Part shown: piece by piece, positions 22,409 to 61,502 of the stretch
How positions within the stretch are numbered: position 1 is the stretch's first letter
Layout of the letters: each line of letters opens with the position of its first letter
NCBI RefSeq assembly: GCF_026151205.1
Contig: NC_087084.1
Location: 4,395,538-4,459,537, forward strand
DNA length: 64,000 nt
Reading direction: 5' to 3'
DNA from: Bolinopsis microptera
Taxonomy: Eukaryota; Ctenophora; Tentaculata; Lobata; Bolinopsidae
Translations under genes and position numbers: made by a program
Notes under the pieces: model-generated
What the model saw: the letters and a program-made list of their open reading frames with translations, nothing else
Databases searched by the model: none
What the model was told of the DNA's origin: nothing

Positions 22409-24085
22409 CTAGCTGCTGTCATCTTCCTCTGCCGGCATAGGATGGTACGCCTTAAAATAAGCTATGATATTCTCCGTGATCGGTGTGCCGACGAAATGAT
22501 CTGCAAGTAAAATTATTATTAGTTTATTTCTAGCGTACAAGAAAAATGTTTCGCGTTCAATATTACTGGAAACGGCCAGATTTCAACCATATTTACTATG
22601 ACGCATGCCAGTATTAACCAATCAACTTCCAGCATTGTCCAATCGAACAAGAATCTCTGTCACGCGTCACAACTAATACGGTTAACCTCCCCTGCACCAC
22701 TATCCAGTCGTAGAACCAGATCTAGAACGAAGGAAAATCTCTAAAAATAATACTTGACAAAGTAAACCTACTCATGTTAATTATTCACTTACCCAACATG
22801 TTCCAGTTAGCTTTTAGCTCGGTCAGTTTCTCGGCGGTGAGTGTTTGGTTGAAGTAAGTCTGATCATTTAGTATGTGCCAAATACTGCGAGTACACTCAC
22901 AATCTCCCTCTTCTTTTTCTTCGTTCTCTTCCTCCGCAGGCATAGGATGGTAGGCTTTGAAATGAGATATGATGTTCTCCGTGATCGGTGTCCCGACAAA
23001 ATGTTCTGCAAACAAATTCAACATATTTAAATGGTTTATTTAAAAAAGAGAATTGTTGAATAAATTAATCAGGTTCCAGCATTACCCAAACAAAACTGAT
23101 TGTCACTGTCACATGTCCAAACAAGTGTCCATCACCCCTGCGCCATTATTTAGAACTTAAACGTTTGTTAATGAAATAGTTTCCTTCTAAAGATTATTAA
23201 AAATCAATGTGCCTATTAAGATAATGGCAAACCCAACTTGCTTAGTGCTTACTTACCCAACATGTTCCAGGCGGATTTTAGCTCTGTCAGTTTCTCGGCG
23301 GTAAGTGTTTGATTTAAGTAGGTCTGATCATACAGTATGTCCCATATACTATGAATGCAGTCACAATCTTCCTCTTCTTCCTCCTCTTCCTCCTCTTCAG
23401 CAGGACACCCAGAGTCCACCTCTGTGACATTGCCAGTCCTGTCTTGACTCAGTATGCTCTCCCAGGTGATGAACCTGACTTCCTGGTGCTTCTTTTCTAC
23501 ATCAGAACATCTCCCGCTATTAAACAACTCCGCTACTTCTTCTTGACTGAGCACTTTTCCAAAAACCTCCAGTTTCATCAGCTGCCCACCGAATAATTCA
23601 TGGTTATGTGGGCTGCTGTCTTGTCCCAAAGTGATGACACCCCCCTCTTCTAATGGAGCTGAGGAAACACTTTTAGATCCTATCAGAGTACCATTATAGT
23701 AGGTCTTTATTTCCGGAGAGCTCGTCGACCAGCTTTGACATTGATGAGTCCATGTACCAAGATGTACTTTAACAGCACTTTCCACGCCGATGCTGTCACC
23801 GTGAATGTAGTTGTGCGAACCACCATCTGATATTAGGATCTCATCCCCGTGTGTGGACGTTTTGTAGTTAAACCAGTCTCTGTAGGTGCCAGTCAGCTGT
23901 TTCTTTACCCATGAACACACCGTTAGGGAGTCTTTGACCTGGCTCATATTAGGTGGAAACCTGACGTAATCACCAACTGTGGTGCCGAACTGCAGAGCCT
24001 TTGTTAATAGTTCCTCGGAGGCCGATATAGTGGGGATTGTGCAATGGAGGGCTAGCAGGGCTGTTAGCAGTTGAAAGGACACCAT
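22409..24085 (-). CDS. Secreted pentraxin/LamG-like protein, three exons, 377 residues
   Basis: Exons on the minus strand are 24085-23257, 23005-22793 and 22500-22409. Every junction is consensus (G|GTAAGT; TTTGCAG|AA and ACTTGCAG|AT) and phase 1, and the total of 1134 bp includes TAG. Residues 1-22 are a signal peptide (MVSFQLLTALLALHCTIPTI). Residues about 28-200 form a concanavalin-A-like/LamG jelly roll. They contain HQCQSWST, which fits the pentraxin signature H-x-C-x-[ST]-W-x-[ST], followed by TYYNGTLIG and VITLGQD. An acidic Glu run follows, then three Cys-poor modules of the type CxCxxSIWxIL..TLTAEKLTEL and HFVGTPITEN..KAYHPMPAEE. Pentraxin-type domains bind ligands with calcium, often in innate recognition, but calcium residues were not verified. 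The tail modules are unlike any family I know. Confidence 0.85.
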
Positions 24086-30845: not shown

Positions 30846-33800
30846 ATGCAGGATGATGCTGCCAAGCTTGTAGAGATATTCAGCGAACTGAACAAATTGC
30901 AGGGTTATCAGAAACAGATACAACAAGTCAAAAAGAGGTTAGATCTCATTGTTTGTTCAAAGGATGCAGGATGTTCAGCTCGACAAAATACCAGTGGACA
31001 TTATTTCGTAGGCCCTAAAATGACTCCTCCAGATCCAGTCTTAACCTTAAATTTGACAAATCTCACTAGCTGAGTAGCTCTGATAAAACGGATGATTATA
31101 CGTCCGATTAGAACCTGATAGATCTCATTATCATCATAATGTGTTTGAATTGTTTTGAAATGTTTTATGTCCTATGGATATTTTCATTGAAATTACGTTA
31201 GAATTAGAAAGTGCATTACGATTGCAGCTGATCGACCCTTTCTATTAAAGATCTAAAGCACCAAAATCTATTTTCAAAGTCCCATTATTCTCACAAATAA
31301 CCAAAATAAAACTCAATTCACAATATTTAACTGTGCAGATTTCAGATTGCAGAAGATAATGGAGACGGAGAACGTAAAGCTGGAAGGTCCTGAGTTTGAA
31401 GCAAAGTTAGCTTCCAACATCCACCCCTTCATGTACTCATACCCTGAACCACTAGGGGATCGTTACAGAGACGTTCAAAGTGAATAATTGTGGTGTTATA
31501 ACCTCAGCTGTGATGTTTTATAAACAACTGATTATGATCGATTAATTGTGTACTCGATTAAGTTCTATTTTTGTCTTCCTTACAATGTTCCATGGTCTAA
31601 GATGAATAAAATACATTTTTTCTATCTACGATGCTAGATTCCTTCTGATAATAATTCACAAAGAAGAGCTTTCGCCCTTAGGTCTGCTGGATGAGTTGGC
31701 AGACAAGAGCACAAAAAGAGGAGTCCAGCATCAGAGGTACCTGGAAACGGTTATGCAGTTCAAAGATAAGGGATACAGGTTTTTGGACATTTTAAAGTAA
31801 TTCTTTAATTTTTTTCGTATGATTTGAATTGCAATGAATAGTTTAAAGTTAGGTTCGAGGTTGGAATTAGGTTTAGGGGTAAGGGATATCTTGTTGGAAG
31901 CTAAATTCTGCGACCATATTTTGGATGGGGTTTATAACTGTTAAGAAAGAATGATCAATAATCAGTTTTTCAGACAACGAATAAGTTTTTAAAAGTTTTC
32001 GTCAGTACCTCAATAAATGTATTGAATTTTAGTTGTGAAAATAGTTGACCCACATCACAACTGCCAGGTACGCAGTATGTAGCGGTAATAAGTTCTTTCT
32101 AATGCAGAGATTTCACCAGCGGGTCTATTTGTGATTGTCTAATCCCGGCCCTTCCCGGTCATTTTGGACCTTTACCGATAGTTTAAATCCGACATCTAGC
32201 GTCATCTAGCGTGAAATGACGCTAGATGACGCGTTTCTTGATACACGTTGTAACTCCTTTTCGCGTGCACGAGAGAAGCTTGCAACGTGCAGCAATACGT
32301 TTTACTCAAACACCCGGACGAATCTACAGTTGCTAACAACAAAGAATAACCCAGGTACGCACTGTGTAACGGTAACAAGTTCTCCCCCTCTAACAGTGGA
32401 CTCAATATAGACCCTGGAACCTACCCCTTCAGAAGTAGCGCTTCGGACAACTGTCTGTACTTCTCCAACAATACTTCTGATAATTCGTAAGTTCACTCAG
32501 TTTTAAATGTGTTGTGTTTGTTAAACTTTTTAACTATTCGAAGGTGGAGTCACATTAATCTATATTGGTTTAACAAACATTTTCACGGTTGACGTTTGCA
32601 CGCAAATGATCGAAGCATCGAAAATTAAACTTTGCATGATTCGAAACATGCATAAAAAGTTAGAATTATGAAAATAGGTTTATTTGGTATATACTATAAC
32701 CGTTCAAATTTGTGCTGGTTCTCATCAGCATCTAAAAGTAATTATCATAACACTTAAATGTATTGTATTGCCTTCTCGTTATTCACCTACTACTATCAGA
32801 AGTACAACAGACACATCCTCAACATCAAGATCTAGTCCACCAGTATTCTTTTCTACCAAAGAAGGAATAGAGACTGCATCAACTTTAGACGAATCCATGG
32901 TTAGATAACTTGCAATAAATTTCTGCTTGTTGAATTTCATATTTATAACTTCTGAATGCACTAAAAACACATAAATTGGGTACTGACGGCTGATGTGTTG
33001 AATACTTACCTTGTTATAGATCTAATAAATTTCATGTTTTCAGATTTGCCATCCTCCCTCTGAGCTGCCTGATACGTGTAGCACAAGTTCGTCAGATTCC
33101 AGTTCTAAGTCAGGCCCCAAGCAGCTATCCGGTAATAATTTTGAGTACCTTATTAAATCTTTAAATATACATATTTATTATTCATGTAATACATGTTTTA
33201 CAATAGTTTTGAGTACCTTATTAAATCTTTAAATATACATATTTATTATTCATGTAATACATGTATTACATCTTTACATGATGTAATAATAAATGAATCT
33301 AATTTAGAAATGGAGAAGTTTTCGCATTTATGAATATCAAGGCTCACAATATGATATATTGGTAGCTAAAACAATTTAAAGTACGAATATCACCTTTATC
33401 AGAAGGAAAGTGGACACAGCCTGAATCCTTAGTCTGTAACCCTCCTGAATCTACCTACCAATCCCTGATCTCCCAAGAAACTTACCCACCCTCACCCTCT
33501 CTCTCAAAGAGCTCCAAAACCTCCTCCTCGCGGAGCACCTCCTCCGCAAAGAAAAGCATTTCTCCAATGACCTACGACGAGATATCTCGCTACAGTGAAC
33601 TGTACTGCACCCCAGGCACCACCACCCTGGATCCAGACACATACTCTAGGTTACTTCTTGGTCGAATAATTTTCATATAATTGATTTGACACATATAAAA
33701 TTGTAATAATGATATAATGATCTTTCTAATTTTTAATTTTTAATAATTTTTAATAATTTCTAATAGTTTCTAATAATTTCTAATAATTTCTAATAATTTC

Positions 33801-35226
33801 TAATAATTTCTAATAATTTCTAATAATTTCTAATAATTTCTAATAATTTCTAATAATTTCTAATAATTTCTAATAATTTCTAATAATTTCTAATAATTTC
33901 TAATAATTTCTAATAATTTCTAATAATTTCTAATAATTTCTAATAATTTCTAATAATTTCTAATAATTTCTAATAATTTCTAATAATTTCTAATAATTTC
34001 TAATAATTTCTAATAATTTCTAATAATTTCTAATAATTTCTAATAATTTTTAATAATTTCTAATAATTTTCTCCAGATATCAGACTGTTCGGAGCATGGT
34101 GGTCTCTCAGACCTGGCTGACTGGCTGGATTAAGGACCTTTATAATATTGAGAGTGAAATTGTTTCAGCTACTGGTAAACCTTTGTTGTAGACTGATTAT
34201 TGAGGTTATTTTGATGAGAGTTCCTGCAGCCATGGCTATAATATTCACGATTGGATAATTTCCCCGAACTGTTAAGCACATATATTTAGTTGCTATTGCG
34301 ACCACAAGGATTTCACGGCATATTTATTATTTATGGTATAGCTGTGCTAATATAAACATAAAATTTTACTTAAGTAAAATATTTGTTTAAACGACCAGGC
34401 CAGTCGGGTTTATAGTAAATAAGCCAGCCGCTAAAAGATGACCGCACTAAACTACAGTCGCAGATATATCTGTAGTTTATATGAACATTAATTAGAGGTT
34501 TTAGTACTATAAACCTCTAAATGTTCAGATAAAATGTTTACGGCAGTGGTTTTCAGCTTTTCAAAAAAAGGTTACGATTTTCAGACCAAATACATTGATT
34601 GCCGGATAATAACTTTTAAAGTATTGTTAATAAACTTTGTGTTTTATACGTTGCTATTTTATAGTTTGATAGTTTATTGTAGTGATACTGATATGAAAGA
34701 ATTTTTATTGGAAATCTCGAATGGTAAATATTGGCTGAAGATTTGCTCAAATTCTATCTTTCTTTTCAGTTTCAGTTTAACAACAATAGGTAATTTATTG
34801 AAGTATGTAAACAGTATTTAAGCATTCTTCGTCCCGTCTTAATGGAAGAAAATGCAGCTTAGTTCAAAAAGACCAGAGCTGATCAAATCCCTAAATTCTT
34901 TTAACCTTTTGAAGGCTCAGTAGTGCCAACAGCTTCACTTTGAAAATGAGCATGTCTATTTGAGTGCGAATTACTCAAATACACTATGCTGATTGCTGAG
35001 GTAATATTTGACTAGTCATATTTGGTATGATCTACCAATCCAGAATATATGTATAGATTGACTTTATTATTCATAGTTATCACCATAAATTGTAATAAGG
35101 TCCCCATAAGAACCATCACCTGATCGTGTAGGGACCGAGCTAATTGGTAATTTGCATTGTTCAGACTCCAGCAGCACAGCTCTCAAACCGGTTCAAGAGT
35201 ATTTGTTAGTTGATTTAAATGTATGA
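30846..35226 (+). CDS. Nine-exon gene for a 335-residue coiled-coil/Ser-rich protein, unknown family
   Basis: Exons: 30846-30937, 31346-31479, 31682-31778, 32397-32486, 32800-32899, 33044-33131, 33403-33649, 34077-34174, 35165-35226. They total 1008 bp, every junction is GT-AG and in phase, and the end is TGA. Strong sites include CTCTAACAG|T, AATTC|GTAAGT, TGTTTTCAG|A and TTTTCTCCAG|A. The weakest are the AAA|GTGAAT donor of exon 2 and the choice of acceptor for exon 3. Residues 1-50 form a charged amphipathic helix (MQDDAAKLVEIFSELNKLQG, then QKQIQQVKKRLQKIMETE), likely a coiled coil. The middle is Ser/Thr/Pro-rich and low complexity, likely disordered. Near the C-terminus SPMTYDEISRYSELY and TWLTGWIKDLYNIESE look folded. 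Without transcripts the start and last exon are less certain. There is no recognisable catalytic motif and I do not know the function. Confidence 0.6.
30951..31118 (+). mobile_element. SINE-like insertion with 11-bp target duplication
   Basis: 168 bp flanked by the direct repeat TAGATCTCATT (30940-30950 and 31119-31129). It matches 21332-21508 and ends gtccgattagaacctga. It sits at the very start of intron 1 of the nine-exon gene, two bases after the donor GT, so the donor's downstream bases are part of the duplicated target. The target duplication supports retroposition. No poly(A) tail is seen. Confidence 0.75.
32199..32232. repeat. 14-bp perfect hairpin
   Basis: Arms GCGTCATCTAGCGT and ACGCTAGATGACGC flank a 6-nt loop, within intron 3 of the nine-exon gene. 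A partial third copy of the arm (catctagcg) precedes it. Confidence 0.88.
33138..33264. repeat. About 67-bp tandem duplication in an intron
   Basis: The segment beginning ttttgagtaccttattaaat and ending atgtaatacatg occurs twice, nearly identically. It is intronic between exons 6 and 7 of the nine-exon gene. Confidence 0.9.
33728..34066. repeat. 10-bp minisatellite (taataatttc)n
   Basis: About 33 almost perfect units. It occupies most of intron 7 (33650-34076) and ends 10 bp before the acceptor of exon 8, so array length sets the intron size and may touch the polypyrimidine tract. Confidence 0.95.
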
Positions 35227-35924
35227 CAAAGACAGACTAGTATGACAGTATGACAGTATAACAGTAGTACAATCCTAATGGGCACGATTTCCTGCATGCA
35301 TTTTCAAGCTGATCAATTACCTAGGATTTGTGAGTTAATAATAGTCCACAATTTTGAACGATTTGTATCTTTTATTTTCGCTATGCACCCTGTTATTTAT
35401 TATTATAATTGCAGTAATCAGTATATATATACTCATGTGTTATCATTCTAATCCTATATAGTTACAAGTTGAAGTAAACTGTGAGACCTCAACTAGCATT
35501 AAATCTAAGTGCATTTTTTACCAACAGTAGACTCTACAGCTGGTTTAAAATAAAATTATTATTGTGAGACTAGGTAATGGTAAGTTAAAAACTTTAATGG
35601 TACACATAACTTTACACGATGATGTCTACAGTAGAGTTTACAGCAGACTCTGTGTGCGTCCTCATTTGCGGTTAAATTGTACTTTGTACAGAAGGTTAAA
35701 TGCTATAATCGGATACGATAGTCTATATCAGCTAATTACTATTGCGTAGAGTATAGAAATTTGTTCTGCCTTGACGTAACTATTTTCTTTGTGATTATCT
35801 TTAGATATACTAGTAATTGTATGCATTTCTCAAAACTTTAAAAAAGTTAAAAGTAAGCGTCCTGCTGAAAACTTACCAACAGTTGGACATATTATAATCT
35901 CACTCCCAAAGTCATGTAGACGGG
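35227..35924. other. Intergenic region before the intronless gene
   Basis: No further exon supported. An in-frame TAA about 30 nt upstream of the 35925 ATG supports that start. Confidence 0.45.
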
Positions 35925-37748
35925 ATGGACGACGAACAGAGACGACCCTCGATTGTTGAAAAATATGTTTCTTATCTCTCTGATAATCTGGGAATGTTAC
36001 ATTTCAACTGCAGACAAAAAAACTCTATAGCTCAGCCTAGAGAGGTTTTTGGGGGATTCGATTTAGCGGACTTTCAGAACAATGTTGTAGCTGCTTTCGC
36101 TGAAGCAACCGGATCTTTATCGCCTAGCGAAATGACTCAACCTGAAGTAGATAACAACAAGCCTACGTCAGGAATATTTTCCTCGACTTTTAGACCTCCT
36201 GTCGAGTCTGAAGAGTTGCCGTCAGCTCCTGAAGTACGGCCATCTATAAACGAAGAGGAGCCTCCAGAAAATACCACCTCAAACAATAATGAACATGTAC
36301 CAGGTAAATTCCTTTCTGCTAGTCCTGACGTTGATATTCAGCGTAAGTACGGGTCCCCCAGACTGGATGTTAGAGCAACATTACTTACATTATCCCAGCC
36401 TAAAAGTGAACAACTTGAACAGGAGGAAGATAAGCAGTCTGTAAACGAAGAAGATGTGGCAGATACTATAAAGATAAGTTCTACTTTTATTCAACCTGAC
36501 AGTGACCAAACAGAGCACTCCTGCTGCACCGCCACTGAAGACTGCAGACCAAACTCGACACTGGTCGACCTAACAGGATTTAAAACAAATCAGATCAATG
36601 TTCGTTTAGAACCTGGAAGTGGCATTGATCTGGAAACATCTAAATCTCTTATCAAGGTTAGGGCTACAGCTCATCTAGTCGGGCTGGAACCAGATGATAC
36701 CCTCACAGTTAACAACAAGGAATCAGATGATATAGTGATCGGGGACGATACGTTCCAAGTATTGGTTCCTTTATCAGGAGGAAGAGGTGAAGGTAACAGG
36801 GAGGTTCGTGTCTCTTTTGTGCTACAAGTAAACCCTGGCAAGAGTAGTGGTCCTTCCTGCATTGTAGAGGATTTGGATGAGCTTGACTCCTCTGTAAGAG
36901 CTGGGGAATGTGTTAAATCAGTAAAGCCTGTGAAGAATATTATCCCAAGAGTGAAACACAAATCTAATACAGCTATTGTTCGAGGTCAACCCCCTCTAAC
37001 TGTCAGCAAAAAGAGAAAAGCACGAAAAATCTCGGTGAAAACAAGCGAGAGAATGTGCAGGAGGCTGAAATTTTCCAACTTATATTATGTGTCAATAATT
37101 CACTCAACAAGTCACCACCGTCTCGTACAACAAGACAAATCTTCAACAATAAGTTTCTTTACCCGTTGTATCACTGACCACGCAAGTGAGACCCTGAAAC
37201 GTTTCATACTGAAGAACCTGAACTGCGAGGAGAGAACAGCTCAAAGAACCAGTCTAAATCCTCAACTACCTGTCACTCAGTTTGTTAAACAGCTAACCCA
37301 AACAGCCTGGATAGGACCAGTTGCATGCTGTATAAGCGGGATAACCTTCAAACCAATCCCCCTCTCCACCTACCCCCGTCTCCACAAGCTAGTCTCCAGA
37401 GTCAGCAGCATGTTAGCACGCAACGCCTCTCTCCCTTGGGTCTACAACTCTCTAGTAGTCAACATGTGTGGTAACGGAACAGACACTACCCACTGGAGCA
37501 GGGAGCTGTTAGATCCAGCAGTGTTCAAGGTTACCCGCCCGGTGTCTATACTCTCAGTAGGGACCTGCAGGAGGGTGATAGTGAGTGATAGGAGAGGGAG
37601 AGTGAGAGGGGTGGTTATCATGACTAATGGGAGCTTGTTACATGTCAGGAGGAGGTTTGTTAGTAGGTACAGTTTGAGGGTGGAGCTAGATAGTGGAGCT
37701 AGTGGGAGCACTTTGTTTCTTACCTTTCACAGGTGCAGCACTCGTTAA
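35925..37748 (+). CDS. Intronless 607-residue protein with degenerate AlkB-like C-terminal domain
   Basis: One uninterrupted frame from ATG 35925 to TAA 37746-37748, in a locus where neighbouring genes have exons near 100 bp. Residues about 60-370 are acidic, Ser/Pro/Glu-rich and probably disordered. A basic KKRKARKISVK patch near residue 365 could be a nuclear signal. From about residue 430 the sequence looks folded. Its last 105 residues follow the order of the AlkB/2OG-Fe(II) core: YNSLVVNMCGNGTD, THWSREL, VSILSVGTCRRVIV, TNGSLLHV, RYSLRV, LFLTFHR. Residues expected as iron ligands are missing: the HxD site reads HWS, the distal His is Leu, and the 2OG-binding RxxxxxR is only partly kept. 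I infer a pseudoenzyme or a domesticated mobile-element gene. The family match rests on pattern alone. AATAAA lies near 37888. Confidence 0.6.
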   Translation: MDDEQRRPSIVEKYVSYLSDNLGMLHFNCRQKNSIAQPREVFGGFDLADFQNNVVAAFAEATGSLSPSEMTQPEVDNNKPTSGIFSSTFRPPVESEELPSAPEVRPSINEEEPPENTTSNNNEHVPGKFLSASPDVDIQRKYGSPRLDVRATLLTLSQPKSEQLEQEEDKQSVNEEDVADTIKISSTFIQPDSDQTEHSCCTATEDCRPNSTLVDLTGFKTNQINVRLEPGSGIDLETSKSLIKVRATAHLVGLEPDDTLTVNNKESDDIVIGDDTFQVLVPLSGGRGEGNREVRVSFVLQVNPGKSSGPSCIVEDLDELDSSVRAGECVKSVKPVKNIIPRVKHKSNTAIVRGQPPLTVSKKRKARKISVKTSERMCRRLKFSNLYYVSIIHSTSHHRLVQQDKSSTISFFTRCITDHASETLKRFILKNLNCEERTAQRTSLNPQLPVTQFVKQLTQTAWIGPVACCISGITFKPIPLSTYPRLHKLVSRVSSMLARNASLPWVYNSLVVNMCGNGTDTTHWSRELLDPAVFKVTRPVSILSVGTCRRVIVSDRRGRVRGVVIMTNGSLLHVRRRFVSRYSLRVELDSGASGSTLFLTFHRCSTR

Positions 37749-38910
37749 TACAGGGACATGTGGTGACGATTTTGCTTTTCAGTGATTATAAATGGACGAA
37801 TTTTCTTTTGTTTTACTCCCAATTAAAGACATTGACTACTATAATAACTATAAAAGAAGAAAGTTTTTGATTATTGATTTAGTTGTAATAAAGCAATATG
37901 TTTACAATATTATTTTCCATATACATGAGCTACAAAATTCAATTATATACTGTTGTGATACACTGACTGGTACCTATATTATATACACAATTATTTTGTT
38001 GATTGTAATGTTATGATATTGCATAATTTATTGTAAATGTAATATATGTTTCAGAAAATTATGTAATGTAATGCGATGGAGGTTCTTTAAGCAGGCAATT
38101 CCAGTCCAAACCCTGGAAACATGACATAAAGGATTTGTTTTACTTGTTGCATGAAAAGCACTAATATACACAATTTTGTAGATTAGTTAAGTTGCGGTGC
38201 TTCTGCATAACGAATTAATTCATGCTATTCACTAATTTTTGCCAATTTTCTATTTTATGTTTTACCGCGACATATACATTTAACGAAGATGTCATGTTTG
38301 AATTTGTTATATTATTGCCACGTGAGGGTTGCTCTGTATTATTTCGTATGTAGAGCAGTTTGTAATGTTCTCGTCTCTTTTATGTGTTCATGGTAATTAG
38401 TTTAAACGGAAAAGCGTTAATTGGAATTGAAGAAAAGTTGTTACAAAGTAGGCATGACAAGCGTGCAACCTAGCAAATGTGGCAGTCTGTAAGCAGTAAT
38501 TCGCTTGCTAACCTAGTCAGTAGTAGTCAACCGCACAAATTGCCTTGTCCACATGAAAGAAGTTTAGTGAATTTTTTAATTGACACGGCCACTTTAATTT
38601 GTCTTTAGATTCTCTGATTTCAGTTAATCTAATCTGTCAAATAAAATTTACAATTACTATTGCAAACTTATGTGGTCATTTGTTCATATCTGGTTAAATT
38701 TCTTTGACTTTCTATGAACAACTGAACTGCAGCACAATCGTTGTGATATCGTGAAATTTTTAACAATTTGTATGCATCATTAATTGTAAACTGCTTTTGG
38801 GAAATCTCTGGGAAGATTTCTGGGACCTGTCTCGACTTTTTCTCCTTTAAATCGCTTTGTGACGAATTTTTTCTGACCAAAATATGTACTGCTGCTAGAT
38901 TGTGTAAAGC
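37749..38910. other. Intergenic region, no gene recognised
   Basis: AT-rich. Likely 3' UTR of the intronless gene on the left and promoter of the seven-exon gene on the right. Confidence 0.4.
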
Positions 38911-41900
38911 ATGCCGAGACACGGTGAGATATCGTGGCAGGTAGCTCAACTGGAGAGCAAGGTGGAGTTCATGATGGAGAACCTGTTCACCAAGATAGAC
39001 AGCATATACGAGGTGAGAGAGGGTTCTTTGTAACTCTTAACAAATATAATAGTGTATAAGTATTGTTAAACTAGCAACATACGAGGTGTGACGAAGTTAA
39101 ATTTTAATGATTTTTTAAATTTTTATTTTAAGAACACCCTTGCACATTATTTATTTCTCTATTGATGTATAGTCAAGACGTGAGTGTTAAGGCTCTCATT
39201 GACAAATTTATGTTTAATCCTGTTTAATACGAGGTGAGAAAGGATTCTTTGTAAGGGTAACCCTTAAAAATTAGTGTATTGTTAAACTAGCGTCAAATTA
39301 ATAAATTATTCACTAACGACACGTATAGAAATCGTCCCAGATCACTTGCAAGATAGACCGCGTATGTGAGGTGAGGAAGGGTTTCTTGTAAAGGTAACTT
39401 TGAGAAATAGTGCACATATTAAATTAGCAACAAATTAACAAATTATTTACTAACGATACACATAGAAATCCTCCCAGATCTCCTGCAGTAGTGACAAGAA
39501 CTTCCACGAAACGGAAATGTTAAGACAAGAAATATCTCTGTTACGGATACGGTTGGTTCATCATTTTATATCGATGATGCTCAGTTATACTCATCCTAAT
39601 AGAGTTTTATTAAATTTGATTTCGTTTCATAGTTTGTTGATGTTGTGATTATAGTCCAACACGTTATTGTGATATTAACGAGACATGACAGCGCTAAAGA
39701 TGTTAAACTGCTGTATATAAAGTTGTGTACTGTTAAGATAAATACACGACTGATAATATTGATAAAGTTGTGTATTGTAGGTTGCAGGAGATGGCGAACC
39801 AGCCGGTGCAGTGTTCGTGTACTCACAACAAGTCCCCATCTCTAAAGTCCCCTTCTCTATCCGACCTCACTGTAGCGCTCATGGAGACTAAGAAGGGGAA
39901 TCAGCCACCATCTAGTGAGTTATAACATTTGAGTCTGAAATCAAAACTGATTTATGTCTATAGTTTCTTATATTTATAATGCTATAAATAGTTTTCCCAT
40001 GATACAGAATGGCCCACACGACCCTTGAAAGCTTGAATAATTCTCTCAAGAATAAATTGAGTTATTTAGAATAGGTTGCGTTTGGGCAGACGATTTTGGG
40101 CCATTTTGCATCAATTCAATTAATAATTCACCGCACTAGATACTGCTAATTTGTGGAAGAAACTTAACAAGACTTACAAAACCCCGAAACCTCAGAATCT
40201 AGTCGACGTTAAATCCATCGTTGCGGTAAGTTTTTACATTATACAGTAAACTACCATCGATTAATGAAATTCTCTACAGTTTTTGAGAAATGAAATTTTT
40301 AATTTCATTTAGAATTCTGGGACATAAAAAATTACGATGACCTCAGTTTCTCGTGTAAAAACGATCAAAACCTAAGATGAGAAGTACGTACCGTACCCGC
40401 GGCTTTAAGTACGTACGGTACGAGGTTTATTATTAGTACGTACCGTACAACTAGTGAGTGACTACTTTGAAGTACGAAATTTGTCTGAAAAAATTGTGTC
40501 TGTTTTTTACCTTATTTTTCTATTGTTGTAAAATTGGCAGGTATATTTGGAATTTTCAAACCACGATTTTGGTGCCGGTGAATGCTAAAGCCGAATTAAA
40601 CAATTTTTAAGACAATAAATTAATTTTAATAACTGCAATTATACTCAATAGGACTAGGAGTACGTACAGTCATACTATTCTAATGATGAAAATAATAATG
40701 CGGCCGCGACATAAGTTTAGGTGCCCGTAGCGCCATTTTAAGTTTTCCTGTTATTATTTTGTCACGAAAGTCGGACTTCCATCGAAAACCCATTTATTGT
40801 ACTTTATAGCCAATTTTATTAGTACGTGCGGTAACAGCCATTTTTTCCATTTCACCCTTTTGTAAAAAGGCAATAGTGAAAAGTTACGAATGGTAGTTTT
40901 TGGAGAAAAAAGTGGATTTTGGATATAGCGGTAGGTGGGTCTGAATATGGTGTCATTCCTTCCGTTTGTTACTAATACTATGTCAACTAGCCGCGCGCGC
41001 GCGAGGATTGCTTGCGGAGATGTTGTGTATAGCTACTGCTAGGCTAGCCTGTGGTCAATGAATGCGCGGCGCGAGCGTATTTTAATGCATACTCTGTAAT
41101 GTATACAGGATAGTATTAGGTAATAAGCCCAATTTGTACGTGGCACGCGTAGTGTACTGATGTGTTTCAATATTAATATTATGAAGTGAGCTGATTAGAG
41201 CTTATATTTATAGTTATACTTATAATTATAGTGAATGGAAATCGATCTAGCATCCGCCAAAACGAAAAAACGGGCGCAATTCTTGTTTAAAGTACGTACT
41301 ACTAGGGGTTGATTCACGATGTCAATCCTTCGCAGCTCGGTGAGGCACAGTGGTGCATCTCGCCGATCTACCGAAGAAGTGGTTGCGAGAAGCATTATTT
41401 GATGCGCGCGCGACCCAGTAGTGCATCGCGCTACAATACTAGGGGGTGCACCATAAAATAAACTTGCTCGGATTTAAAAAATTTTTGTACCATTGTTTTC
41501 TAGAGACTGTGAGAATTTTCACAATACCGAATTTGTCATACATTTTTGGAAAGATCAGTGAGTTTCGCCTAGGTGCCATATTTGCTTTGATGGTGCGCGG
41601 CTTTTGGAGCAAAATTAGCTGTAAAAGTCGCGTAATTTTACCAAATTTGACCAAATTCGTTGATTTTTGTCGTATTATTTGGATATATCTTCAGTTCCTT
41701 GAATGAGATCATTCTGAAAATTGGCGACGACCTTCCAATAGGGCTTTCACAACTGTCCGAAAAATTTGGTGGATATCAGAGTTGATATAGTAATCAAAAT
41801 GGGGCAAAATACGCTGCTTTTAACTGTAACATAATGTTTGAGGGTTGGATATGCTTTAAACTTTTCGGACACTTTCCTTGTAAGTTTATGAGTAAGCTTA

Positions 41901-44900
41901 CCAATTTTTGTTGCAATCGGAGGTCGGGAAGGATACTTAATATCTATTTGTTTGAAGGAAAATTGTGCTGGCCGAAATTAGCGCTAAAAAACCATTCTAC
42001 AGTCGGAACGCGCGGCTCACTGTCGATGGCACACTACCTAGTTATACTACATACCGTACAAACTTTTCATCATAGTATATAACGAACAAACAATCCTACA
42101 TTTCCAGAAATGGAATGAGAGTTCCAAGAGTGATGAAACACTTAATGTTAATGCTTATCAAATGATAACGCCAACAGTATCCTCTTGTCCTTGATTTTTT
42201 TCTTTTGGCCCAGGGACGAAACATAGCCGAATTTGAACAAACTATCTACAGTAACAATTTAATCCCTTTGATATCGATTGCCACCCATGCCAAGCCGGGT
42301 TGCAACGAAAGCTTAATAGATAATATTTTAGTGAACTCTACTGAGCGTGTCTTAGGATCTGGAATTCTTGAATCCAAGATTTCCCATCATAACCCCATCT
42401 TCTGTTTCATATCGTGTAATACTAAAGAGAGTCCAAATGATGCCAAACTTAAACCTAAGTATGATTACTGTGAGTCTAATATAGAAAGCTTCCTTAATGA
42501 TATCGGAAGGGATATCTACCAATCGAACTTTTCGTATGATGAGGAAGGTTTTGAAAAATTTGTCGAAACTGTCCATGAAAAAATCGAACTGAATTTCAAA
42601 GTGGACTCTACTGCTGGTTTTCAATCAAAACGCAATAGATTGATGAATCCATGGATCACTTCTGCGTTAATTAAATCTGTGTTTACTAAAGGCTTTCACT
42701 ACAAGCGATGGAAGGCTTCGTGTACAAAAATCAACCCATTAGGTGAGGAAACTTTATATCTCAAGTATAAGGAGTATCGCTCTATCCTAAACAAAGCTAT
42801 AAAATCTGCGAAAAAAGCCCACTATGGGAAAAAATTTGAACTTGCTAAAGGAAATATTAAAAAAACCTGGGAATTGATTAACGAACTCAGGGGTAAATCT
42901 AAAAAAGATATAAAAGCATCATTCTTAATTGATGGTAGAATTGTAACTGAACGCCGTGAGATTGCTAACGGATTTAACATCTACTTCTCGTCTATTGCTC
43001 GTACTCTTAATTCAAAAGTTCAATCTTCTGTACCATCTCGTACGGTAACTGATGGCAATTTCAATAAAAAGAAGTTTAAGCAATACCTCAAGGGCAGAGA
43101 AAGAATAGTGAACTCTTTTTTTCTCAGCCCCTGTGACGAGGAAGAGATAAGTAAAATTATTGGTAGCCTTGAAAATGGGAAGGCAAGTGATATCTCTGTT
43201 AAAGTCTTAAAAAAGAGTGTAAATTATCTGTCTGGTCACATCTCTAGATTCTTTAATTGGTTCTTGGACAATGGGGTCTTTCCAAACAAGCTTAAAACGG
43301 GCTCTATTACACCAATCTATAAAAAAGGAGACTCACGATGCCTTGATAACTATAGACCTGTTTCTACATTACCGATATTTGGAAAAATACTTGAAAAAAT
43401 AATTTATAATAGGTTATATAATTACCTCAGTGCTATGAACGTGATTTATGATCGACAATTTGGTTTTAGAAAACAACACTCAACATCTCATGCCGTAAAC
43501 TATTCTGTCAATAAAATACTTAATGAGATTGAACAGAAAAATCATGTAATTGGAATATTTATTGATCTAAGTAAAGCATTTGACACAATTGAGCACGATA
43601 AACTCCTGCATAAACTTGAACACTATGGAGTAAGAGGTATTGCACTAAAAACTCTTGCTAGCTATCTAACAAACCGTAGCCAAGTAACTTCTTTTCAAAC
43701 TGAAAAATCGGACAAGTGTTCAGTTGAGTATGGTGTACCCCAGGGGTCAGTGTTAGGACCTCTACTATTTCTGATTTATATAAATGATATTGTGAGCTCC
43801 TCAAGCTTGGCTGAATTCGTCCTGTTTGCTGATGATACAAATATTTTTGTGATAGGTAGTTCAGCACAGGAAGCTTTTGAAAAAGCTAATCATGTAATGA
43901 AACAGGTCAGTAACTATATGGAGTCTAACAAGTTACATATAAATGCAGGGAAAAGTTGTTACATGCATTTTCAGCCAGGTTTGTCAAGAGCAACACAGAC
44001 CTGTGCCAGAACACGGCCCTTTAACAGGAATCTAACGATTTTAATAGATGGCAAAAAAGCTAGAAAAAGTTCAATGTACAAAGTTTCTTGGGGTGATAAT
44101 AGACGAACAGCTAAGCTGGGAACCACATCTTAATCATTTATCTTTAAAGCTGAACTCCAGTATTGTATCGATTAAGAGAATTTGCAAATTCATTCCCAAA
44201 TCTGAATATTTGAAACTATACAATGCTCTTTTTATGTCACATCTTAGCTATTGTATAAGTTGCTGGGGTGGGATCCCTAAACATAAGCTGAATAAAATCT
44301 TTGCAATTCAAAAACGATGTATAAGACTGCTATTTGGTAACATTCCCAATTTTGATCATAAGGAATACTATTTAACCTGTGCACGTTCAAGAACTTATAA
44401 CGAACATATGGCTAGCAAGAACTACTGTCTTGAACACACTAAACCGCTATTCACTGAGCAGAAAATTATGAACCTGGAGAATCTGCACATGTACCATACA
44501 TTTATGGAACTATTCAAAATTCTTAAATTTGATGTCCCCCAGTCGATTAAAGATCTTTTCAAGTTCTGTCCTAGAAATGAAAAACTTCGTCTGATTGTCC
44601 CATTACTGAGGTTGGATATCTCCCAACAGAACTTTTTGTACACCTCTACGAAAATTTGGAATGACCTCAGCCCCTATGTATTCGAAATATGTGATGCTAA
44701 TGTAGATGGGATAATAATCCCGGGTTCTTCCAAGAATTCAGACTTGTCAGCCTCGTCAGGTGTTATTAAATCTAACCTTAAAAAGCACTTGCTATCCCTC
44801 CAAAATCGAGATGACCCTAATACATGGTAATTGGTAACTAATTTATATTATATCTCAAATTCTAAATCCGGTACGGCTCTGCACACATGATATCTCTCTC

Positions 44901-58524: not shown

Positions 58525-59962
58525 TTAGAAATCTAGATACTTGGTAGCTCTAGCGATCCCCACAGTGTTACTGGTAGAGAAGGTGTGATGGAAGGTATCC
58601 TCTCTGATGGTATAGTTACCAACGTAGTATTTCCTGTGTAAGGAGAATGCTGGACAGCTTGTGAGATAGTGTGCTGTAGTTTCATTGTCTTCATCACACT
58701 TTTTGCATGCTGTTGGGTTCGTTGCCAGTCTTGTTTTGGAAATATCTGAGATGACTGCATCCTGTGAATAGATGTGTAAGAATTCTACTCTTGTCTCTAT
58801 TTTGTCGTCTAACGTCAAGGTGTCTGTCAAAGAAACTAATAATGTTGGATTGGTGGAAAACAGTGAGGATCTGAAGAGTAATATATGATAAAAGTGAGGT
58901 CGGAAAAAGTAACTGTCTAGAATATTAGAAAGAGAGGAGTGAGTTTAAGGAGCCAAAGGAGGAGGTCCAATGGGACGGAGAGTGTCCTTCTAACTGCGTT
59001 GAGGGCTCCTAGAGTGTCTATGATGAGGTGGGATTGGGTGATGGTGCCCGATAAGGCATGAAGAACTGCTTAGTTGTCGATGCAGATGTGGAGCTCAGTA
59101 GCTGCGTAGTTGGTCTTGGGGAGGTGAATGCAGAGGTGGAGTAAAGCCAGCAACTCTGCCTGGAAGATGATTGTGGTGTTTGGTGGTAATGTTCTGAAAT
59201 AGTCGATGAGTTAGGATAGAGGACGAACCCCGCTGCTGCAAGATTGTTCGTCACCGAGCTGTCAGTGTACCCAACTAGTGTGTCAGATTTATGGAGGAGT
59301 GGGATCTGAACTAGGGCTTCCGAGCGTTCGAGTATATAATCCGTTTTGAATGATTGTGACAGGTTGGGTGAGGCTGGTGTTCCATGTCTAAAAGTGATGT
59401 ATATCTAAAAGGAAAAGAGGTGGACGTATCTTCTTGAGATGGTCGGAGAGAAGGATAGAGTGAGATGTGAGCTTTCCATTCCGTCTCTAAGTCCGTTTGA
59501 GGCGGACGAAGTGATGTTAAGCCTGAGGAAAGTTATGAGAGAAATGGAGTGAATCCTGAGGTCAAGAGGGGGGAGTTGGGTGAGGACCTCTAAGTAACAG
59601 GTCGGTGAGGGGGAGATGGTTCCTGTGATCAGAAGTAGAGCTGTTCTTTGTACTGATCCATGTGAGAGGGCTGGGATAATGATTTGAATAAAATATTTTT
59701 GTGCCTGTCTCGAATTGTAGATTAAGTTTATGTCGTGCGGGTTAGTGTCTAGTGATTCTAGGAAGTCTACCTCCGCTATAGCAATCTCTGTATGGGTATG
59801 GAATGCGTCTTCTCTAGTCAGTATTCTACAGTCTGTCCTAGTAGCTAGGAGAGTCAGGTCGGGGTCTGCGGTGGAAACACCTGAGCTGGGCGCCCCGTTA
59901 GGGACAGCCTTAGGTGTCCCTGGCTCCTCTAATAAGTCGGCGATTCCACTAGTGGATGCCAA
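58525..59962 (-). pseudogene. Decayed LINE fragment with RNase H domain
   Basis: Reading leftward on the minus strand: a segment with LSHGSVQRTALLLITGT and YLEVLTQLPPLDLRI (59405-59962), which resembles the region between RT and RNase H in R1/jockey/I-type LINEs. Then an RNase H-like core: YTDSSVTNNLAAAGFVLY (first Asp), a frameshift, FQAELLALL (Glu) and HICIDN then stop (second Asp, with a stop where Gln is usual). Last, at 58525-58830, CKKCDEDNETTAHYLTSCPA, the usual C-x2-C..H..C motif after RNase H. At least one frameshift and two in-frame stops make it non-functional. The reverse transcriptase itself was not found, so the copy is truncated or rearranged. Confidence 0.7.
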
Positions 59963-59963
59963 C

Positions 59964-61502
59964 TCACCAGAGGGCCTGGAACTGGTCTGTAAAAGTCTGC
60001 GTGATGCAGAGTTGTAAGGGTAAAGTAGACAAAGGAAAAACTGCGCGCAAAGTGCGCGGCATGGCAGGGAATGAATGGAAAACGGTCTCCATGATAAAAA
60101 ATGGAATGGCTTTCGCCGCGACCATAAAGGTCACGACAAAGCGGGAAAACGGGCAGGCTGAGGTTATGTCAAAAGAGGGATATAGATACAATGATCCAAA
60201 GGGGAGGCAGAGGGAGAGATACCACCGACAACCTGGGTGACAGGCCTCCGACAGTGCACCCACCTCTGTGGGTCTGAGGGCGACAAGTCCAAGAACCAGG
60301 TGTGACGGATGGCATCCAATCCCCTACCTCGGTGGTTAGCTTGAGAAAAACAGGACTATGCCTTTCTCCAGGCCAATCCGTTCAGTAACCAGCTGACCCA
60401 GCACCACCTCTGAGGGAAGATGTGGTTCGGATTGGACTTCGCTAGGATTAGTCAGTTTTTCTGTAGACACTAATGCTCCCTCAAGGAAAGACATGAGCCC
60501 CGGCGAAACTGACCAAAAACGTGGCAGGGATTCTCACCCTTCCAAGGGTAGTATGTAAGTGTGATCAATAACTTACCATCATGGAGGGTTTGTTGTGAAA
60601 TGGAGCAAGGAGCCATATTCATAACATCTTTACAGCGTGTTGCGTGTGACTTGTACACCTTATGTGGGTAATGTGTAATGTATGGCTGATGTTACATTAG
60701 GCTATTATATAAGGTGAACACTATACTCGTTAAGTGTGTTCAAGTGTGGTAGGTCTCTAGGTTTTTAATTGGCTAATCATATGTTAGTTAAAAAACGAAA
60801 TGGGACAATATACTAACTGATGAGATATTCTACAATCAGCAACAGGTGAGCTTTTGTGATGTTTAGAAGTATTTACAGTTAATTAAGAAGGTATAAAATC
60901 ACCAATAACAAGATCGTGACAACGGTGTGGAGCTCACTAAGGGGTGTTATAATTAGTAGGGTACACGGTACGTGTCTGGTACACGTGACGTGCATTACAA
61001 AATAACAAAATAATTCTGCAAATTAACGAATAAAAAACAACTGTCAATATAATATGGTTTTGAATTAAAATATTAAACGGGAAATGTTGCCGTGATTGGT
61101 CGTACCAACTCTTTAAGAAATATGTTGTACAATATTAATGATAAAATCGTTTCGTCTGTATACATTCATAATATGGTAAGGTGAAATTCAATGGGTGTTT
61201 TTAACCAAAAGGGTATTATGGATGTTGAATCAGTCAAAAACGACTAATTCAAGGTTTTGTTTCGGGCGATCTTGTCAAAAACAATTATTTGCAAATTTCT
61301 AACAATTCCATCTGAGGTAATTATATTTCAAATTCAATTGGTCTGTGTCCACTATTATATACTCGTACAATGGCCTGAAGCTAATACAGCTGGAGTCGCT
61401 AGTGTTAAGTAAGGGTTTCAGTTTTAGGGTGGTACTTCTCCATGCGCCTTTTTCCCTTTAATTTTTCTCTCACTTCTTCAATATTTCTGCTCATCTGAAC
61501 AA
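59964..61502. other. No supported gene
   Basis: 59964-60450 is noticeably richer in G and C and has overlapping open stretches on both strands, none recognisable. It may be an older part of the adjacent LINE or another element. 60450-61500 is AT-rich. Confidence 0.35.

Follow-up and report, generated by a model that had tools for sequence, protein, structure and literature searches.

An intronless 607-residue protein of Bolinopsis microptera carries an ALKBH2/3-type AlkB domain that appears to have lost its catalytic residues

The described systems closest to the protein reported here are human ALKBH3, human ALKBH2 and the bacterial and viral AlkB proteins of the ALKBH2/3 type. In human ALKBH3 the iron triad consists of His191, Asp193 and His257, arranged in a His-X-Asp/Glu...His motif; the enzyme is left almost inactive, and less stable, once the side chain of His191 is removed, and Arg131 and Tyr143 are among the proposed base contacts (PMC10816986, partial text). 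Human ALKBH3 also binds, or works with, the helicase ASCC3 and RAD51C (PMC8508711, partial text).

Within the window, by which we mean the whole stretch of 64,000 nucleotides analysed here, a single open reading frame encodes a protein of 607 residues whose C-terminal domain resembles these enzymes (Table 1). Compared with human ALKBH3 (PDB 8jnk, 2iuw), this protein lacks H191, H257, R269, R275, Y181, R131 and Y143, carries Glu in place of D193, adds about 400 N-terminal residues before the domain and is more basic. The same catalytic losses are seen against human ALKBH2 (PDB 3bu0, 3bty), to which the match is slightly weaker than to ALKBH3. With the bacterial and viral proteins (loci L001-L111; PHROG 21963) the domain shares the core motifs at 15-24% identity (51 aligned), but the equivalents of H191, D193 and H257, which are invariant among them in a 96-sequence alignment, are changed here, and again about 400 additional residues stand at the N-terminus. 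Pseudoenzymes are well known for kinases and proteases; to our knowledge, AlkB homologues are nearly always treated as active enzymes. No catalytically dead AlkB protein of an animal was named in the titles and abstract openings that were searched, a result that is weak evidence of novelty because subscription journals are mostly uncovered by it.

Table 1. Features of the 607-residue gene, with positions in the window.
Feature	Position	Strand	Basis or remark
Single ORF, 607 codons plus stop, apparently the whole gene	35925..37748	+	ORF reading, chance expectation
Acidic N-terminal part, residues 1-325	35925..36899	+	charge
Basic linker, residues 326-409	36900..37151	+	charge
NLS-like basic cluster KKRKARK, residues 362-368	37008..37028	+	charge/sequence
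Putative ALKBH2/3-type AlkB domain, residues 410-607	37152..37745	+	sequence matches; model on AlkB-dominated alignment
Ser525-Arg526-Glu527 at the HxD position (ALKBH3 H191-S-D193)	37497..37505	+	alignment A2
Leu584 at the distal Fe ligand (ALKBH3 H257)	37674..37676	+	two alignments
Thr596...His602 at the two 2OG arginines (ALKBH3 R269, R275)	37710..37730	+	two alignments
AATAAA, candidate polyadenylation signal	37887..37892	+	139 bases past the stop codon

The frame opens with an ATG that has an in-frame stop 10 codons (30 bases) upstream, contains zero internal stops and needs no intron across its 607 codons, which bears out the intronless gene that the earlier note had read here. It is not a chance ORF; frames of this size are expected about 1e-15 times per 64 kb at 37% GC, the value of the window, and 7e-13 times at 43% GC. 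Exon-like stretches on the same strand, recognised by eye, flank the gene upstream and downstream. The base asymmetry between codon positions is marked in both parts of the gene: of 1000 samples drawn at random from elsewhere in the window, 17 reach the value of codons 1-400 and 21 that of codons 401-607. Residues 401-607 exceed residues 1-400 in GC3 (a difference reached in 2 of 2000 permutations, with the best break near residue 471); a fusion, a possible cause of this rise, was set aside, since a pentraxin-like gene in the window is similar in GC3 (0.504).

Along the protein the charge changes sign. The net charge is -4 for residues 1-70, -16 for residues 71-210 and -8 for residues 211-325, then +19 for residues 326-430 and +16 for residues 431-607, so that the long acidic N-terminal half proposed earlier holds for the first 325 residues, but the remainder, from residue 326 to the end, is strongly basic. 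Over its 198 residues the AlkB domain carries a net charge of +18, whereas 94 bacterial and viral AlkBs average 2.3 and do not exceed 15; the corresponding human fragments carry +10 (ALKBH2) and -4 (ALKBH3). A search of the PDB gave no match for residues 1-70 or 206-332, and the Pfam hits of residues 206-332 to Phage_attach (E 0.025) and DUF1758 (E 0.081) are weak and were judged to be noise.

Descent of the C-terminal domain within the AlkB superfamily, from the ALKBH2/ALKBH3 group, to whose double-stranded beta-helix core it is homologous in sequence, is well supported, because the sequence evidence converges on one family, even though single scores are modest. A phmmer search of PDB sequences returned ALKBH3 chains only, both with the full protein (3 rows, E 0.21-0.36) and with the C-terminal 182 residues (4 rows, E 0.067-0.086). 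The Smith-Waterman score against human ALKBH3 is 76, whereas 1000 shuffles reach at most 58 when residues 401-607 are shuffled and 69 when the whole protein is; against human ALKBH2 it is 64, with maxima of 51 and 55, respectively. Residues 1-400 score at shuffle level. The pairwise alignment with ALKBH3 stops at the Trp preceding the HxD motif, short of the active site, while that with ALKBH2 extends as far as the GSLL strand, and the later half of the domain is covered by the ALKBH2 alignment and by profiles only.

Among the profiles, one built from human ALKBH2 and ALKBH3 and 12 stretches of bacterial AlkB, of which one was misframed (14 sequences in all), detects residues 401-607 with E = 0.0017 and the full protein with E = 0.016 (search size 177,635); its alignment reaches the LTF strand, and it reported none of 2,500 shuffles at E<=100. 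The larger, 96-sequence AlkB profile scores more weakly (E 0.033 for the domain, 0.38 for the whole protein). Of 38,880 PHROG families one alone matches, PHROG 21963, 'alkylated DNA repair', with E = 0.001 when the domain is the query and 0.0088 when the full protein is; a true AlkB locus, used as a control, matches this family at 5e-32. The core motifs thus stand in family order, as had been claimed from the letters, and the similarity is above chance by shuffles and profile. When residues 406-607 were compared by tblastn with 72,556 plasmids, 6 records were found, every one at an E of 4-7; four are annotated as AlkB, a fifth is a stretch of Burkholderia DNA lacking annotation, and the sixth falls inside ligA. 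Pfam and NCBIfam gave no match for the full protein or the AlkB region: no Pfam family reached its curated cut-off, 2OG-FeII_Oxy_2 included, whether the full protein or C-terminal stretches were used. Relatives of the domain were absent from the viral_contigs, genome_contigs and phages collections, and human ALKBH2 as a strict-pattern query found no match in viral_contigs. Structure prediction from the single sequence of residues 386-607 gave a mean pLDDT of 35; a confident model of the domain was obtained with an input alignment that held 51 AlkB sequences, and it is therefore not independent evidence.

In place of the HxD/E...H iron triad the protein has S525-x-E527...L584, and in place of the C-terminal pair of 2OG arginines (RxNLTFR) it has T596 and H602. 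The 96-sequence alignment places a gap at the HxD motif, and neither alignment has a His at the positions of the His ligands. The earlier claim that HxD and the distal His were replaced is consequently right for both iron histidines, but the carboxylate position holds Glu527, which could act as a carboxylate ligand. C515 occupies the position of ALKBH3 Tyr181 in alignment A2. N179, Y181, R269 and R275 of ALKBH3 are positions that we take to be 2OG-related, within a set of seven positions assigned as cofactor contacts; N513, the equivalent of Asn179, is the only one of the seven retained.

A count over all columns conserved in at least 85% of the sequences (n=49) shows that the protein keeps 21. 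By class, in a post hoc grouping of the columns made by the analyst, retention is 1/7 for cofactor positions, 0/3 for the base-contact region (131, 141, 143) and 20/39 for the remaining columns, or 20/42 for everything outside the cofactor set. Y143 is replaced by I470 and Y141 by C468, and R131 falls on Q447 in one alignment and, going by column positions, on T458 in the other, neither being Arg. Since the equivalents of R131, Y141 and Y143 are changed, reading of methylated bases by the domain seems unlikely. Catalysis looks impossible from these residues, and the domain is, judged by its alignments, one in which the scaffold is partly kept and the chemistry lost.

The absence of an intron over 607 codons is the main fact in favour of a retrocopy or a captured mobile-element gene, the origin that the earlier note had suggested, in which a LINE or similar element would have carried an AlkB along; a LINE reverse-transcriptase ORF does start at 42205 on the same strand, and an exact repeat of 12 bp, the longest shared by the two flanks (34601-35925 and 37749-38900), occurs at 35734, 191 bp before the ATG, and at 38652, about 900 bp after the stop, its significance being uncalibrated. 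However, no A- or T-tract of at least 7 bases occurs from the stop codon onwards as far as 39.5 kb, and the two A-rich tracts found within 35.0-39.5 kb lie upstream (35547) and inside the gene (36016), so that a 3' poly(A) tract is missing. The LINE frame, the nearest reverse-transcriptase ORF found, is some 4.5 kb downstream, a distance that we do not count as transposon linkage, with exon-like segments that have GT/AG borders (by eye) in between. Nor does the window hold another copy of the protein by tblastn, the DNA comparison yielding short weak matches of 16-33 bases. An origin of this kind is thus unsupported, and we consider it quite unlikely.

A gene in decay, with its frame open by luck, its function gone and its ligand losses due to drift, would agree with the retention of N513 alone among the seven cofactor positions. 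Against it, the frame is intact over 607 codons and the codon-position asymmetry is still present in both halves. We also simulated neutral decay, starting from this frame and applying random point mutations only, until 6 of the 7 cofactor-equivalent codons had changed: none of 1000 whole frames was free of stops (mean 20 stops, fewest 4), and the AlkB domain alone was stop-free in 3 of 1000. Even when decay was halted at 3/7 losses, the runs without a stop numbered 9 of 1000 for the whole frame and 104 of 1000 for the domain. Because not one of the 1000 simulated neutral frames stayed open, the protein was probably kept after its activity was lost, and we hold decay to be very improbable.

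What a maintained protein of this composition might do is best explained, in our view with a probability of roughly 0.45, by an ALKBH2/ALKBH3-derived pseudoenzyme that is nuclear and binds nucleic acid or partner proteins. The AlkB-derived domain would be unable to oxidise or demethylate, a KKRKARK-type signal would carry the protein into the nucleus, and the strongly basic, catalytically dead domain may hold nucleic acid or a partner from repair or RNA processing; the pseudoenzyme could then serve as a scaffold, or compete with active ALKBH2/3, and its acidic N-terminus would be the arm used for recruitment. Since ALKBH3 works with ASCC3 and RAD51C (PMC8508711, in part), competition from a dead relative for partners of this kind is conceivable. 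The dead dioxygenase that the earlier note had envisaged as a nucleic-acid-binding regulator is borne out as to the lost iron histidines, and for its regulatory part a non-catalytic, possibly nucleic-acid-binding role is plausible given the charge of the domain and the NLS-like cluster. The main rival to this reading is a purely structural role, in which the dead domain would be a structural or protein-interaction module whose core is kept for folding and which would not bind nucleic acid. That conserved columns outlast the cofactor columns (20/42 against 1/7), that R131 and Y143 are lost and that human ALKBH3 itself partners ASCC3 and RAD51C (PMC8508711, partial text) all agree with it, but the domain is more basic than all 94 bacterial and viral AlkBs measured and is preceded by an NLS-like cluster, two features in keeping with nucleic-acid contact, and on balance we find a purely structural role rather unlikely. 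An enzyme that is still active with other ligands (Glu527 together with His523 or His573), another metal or another cofactor is hardly credible: Glu is permitted at the HxD/E position (PMC10816986, partial text), N513 is retained, and His523 and His573 are close in sequence, but His523 stands two residues ahead of the ligand position, Leu584 is found at the distal His and both arginine positions are altered. Bearing on the fold itself, the His191 mutant of ALKBH3 is less stable (PMC10816986, partial text), so a ligand-free domain might fold poorly.

Returning to the pseudoenzyme, we tentatively propose, with more doubt than for the reading of the gene product itself, that it may represent a previously undescribed animal family of ALKBH2/3 descent, in which a nuclear pseudo-dioxygenase, built of a long acidic arm and a strongly basic dead domain, would bind nucleic acid or repair partners and regulate active enzymes rather than repair lesions. 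If conserved, it would mean that the AlkB fold can be retained for a non-catalytic role in the biology of DNA and RNA alkylation.

Scans of the remainder of the window gave nothing in Rfam at the gathering score and, for 20 other open segments, nothing in Pfam above the curated cut-off. The pentraxin-like gene is an ORF of 278 residues on the minus strand (23249-24085) in which Pfam recognises a laminin-G_3/pentraxin domain (E 9e-17 and 8e-12); by eye, its start resembles a signal peptide and a run of Glu residues is present. The LINE-type ORF (42205-44133, plus strand) matches Pfam RVT_1 with E 3e-37, and a second ORF, overlapping it in a different frame, continues to 44830 on the same strand, as in a frameshifted element. 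The pentraxin-like and LINE-type ORFs give the window the look of animal DNA. Open segments at 58527-60130 on the minus strand, one of them with a weak match to zf-RVT (E 0.0014, below cut-off), are possibly the remains of a retroelement. A unit of 137 bp is present in 1.9 tandem copies at 39231-39487 and repeats, by eye, a splice-donor-like and an acceptor-like sequence from beside the exon-like segment that ends at about 39012. Finally, a near-perfect tandem array at 33734-34069 consists of 33.6 copies of the 10-bp unit TAATTTCTAA, with 98% matches.
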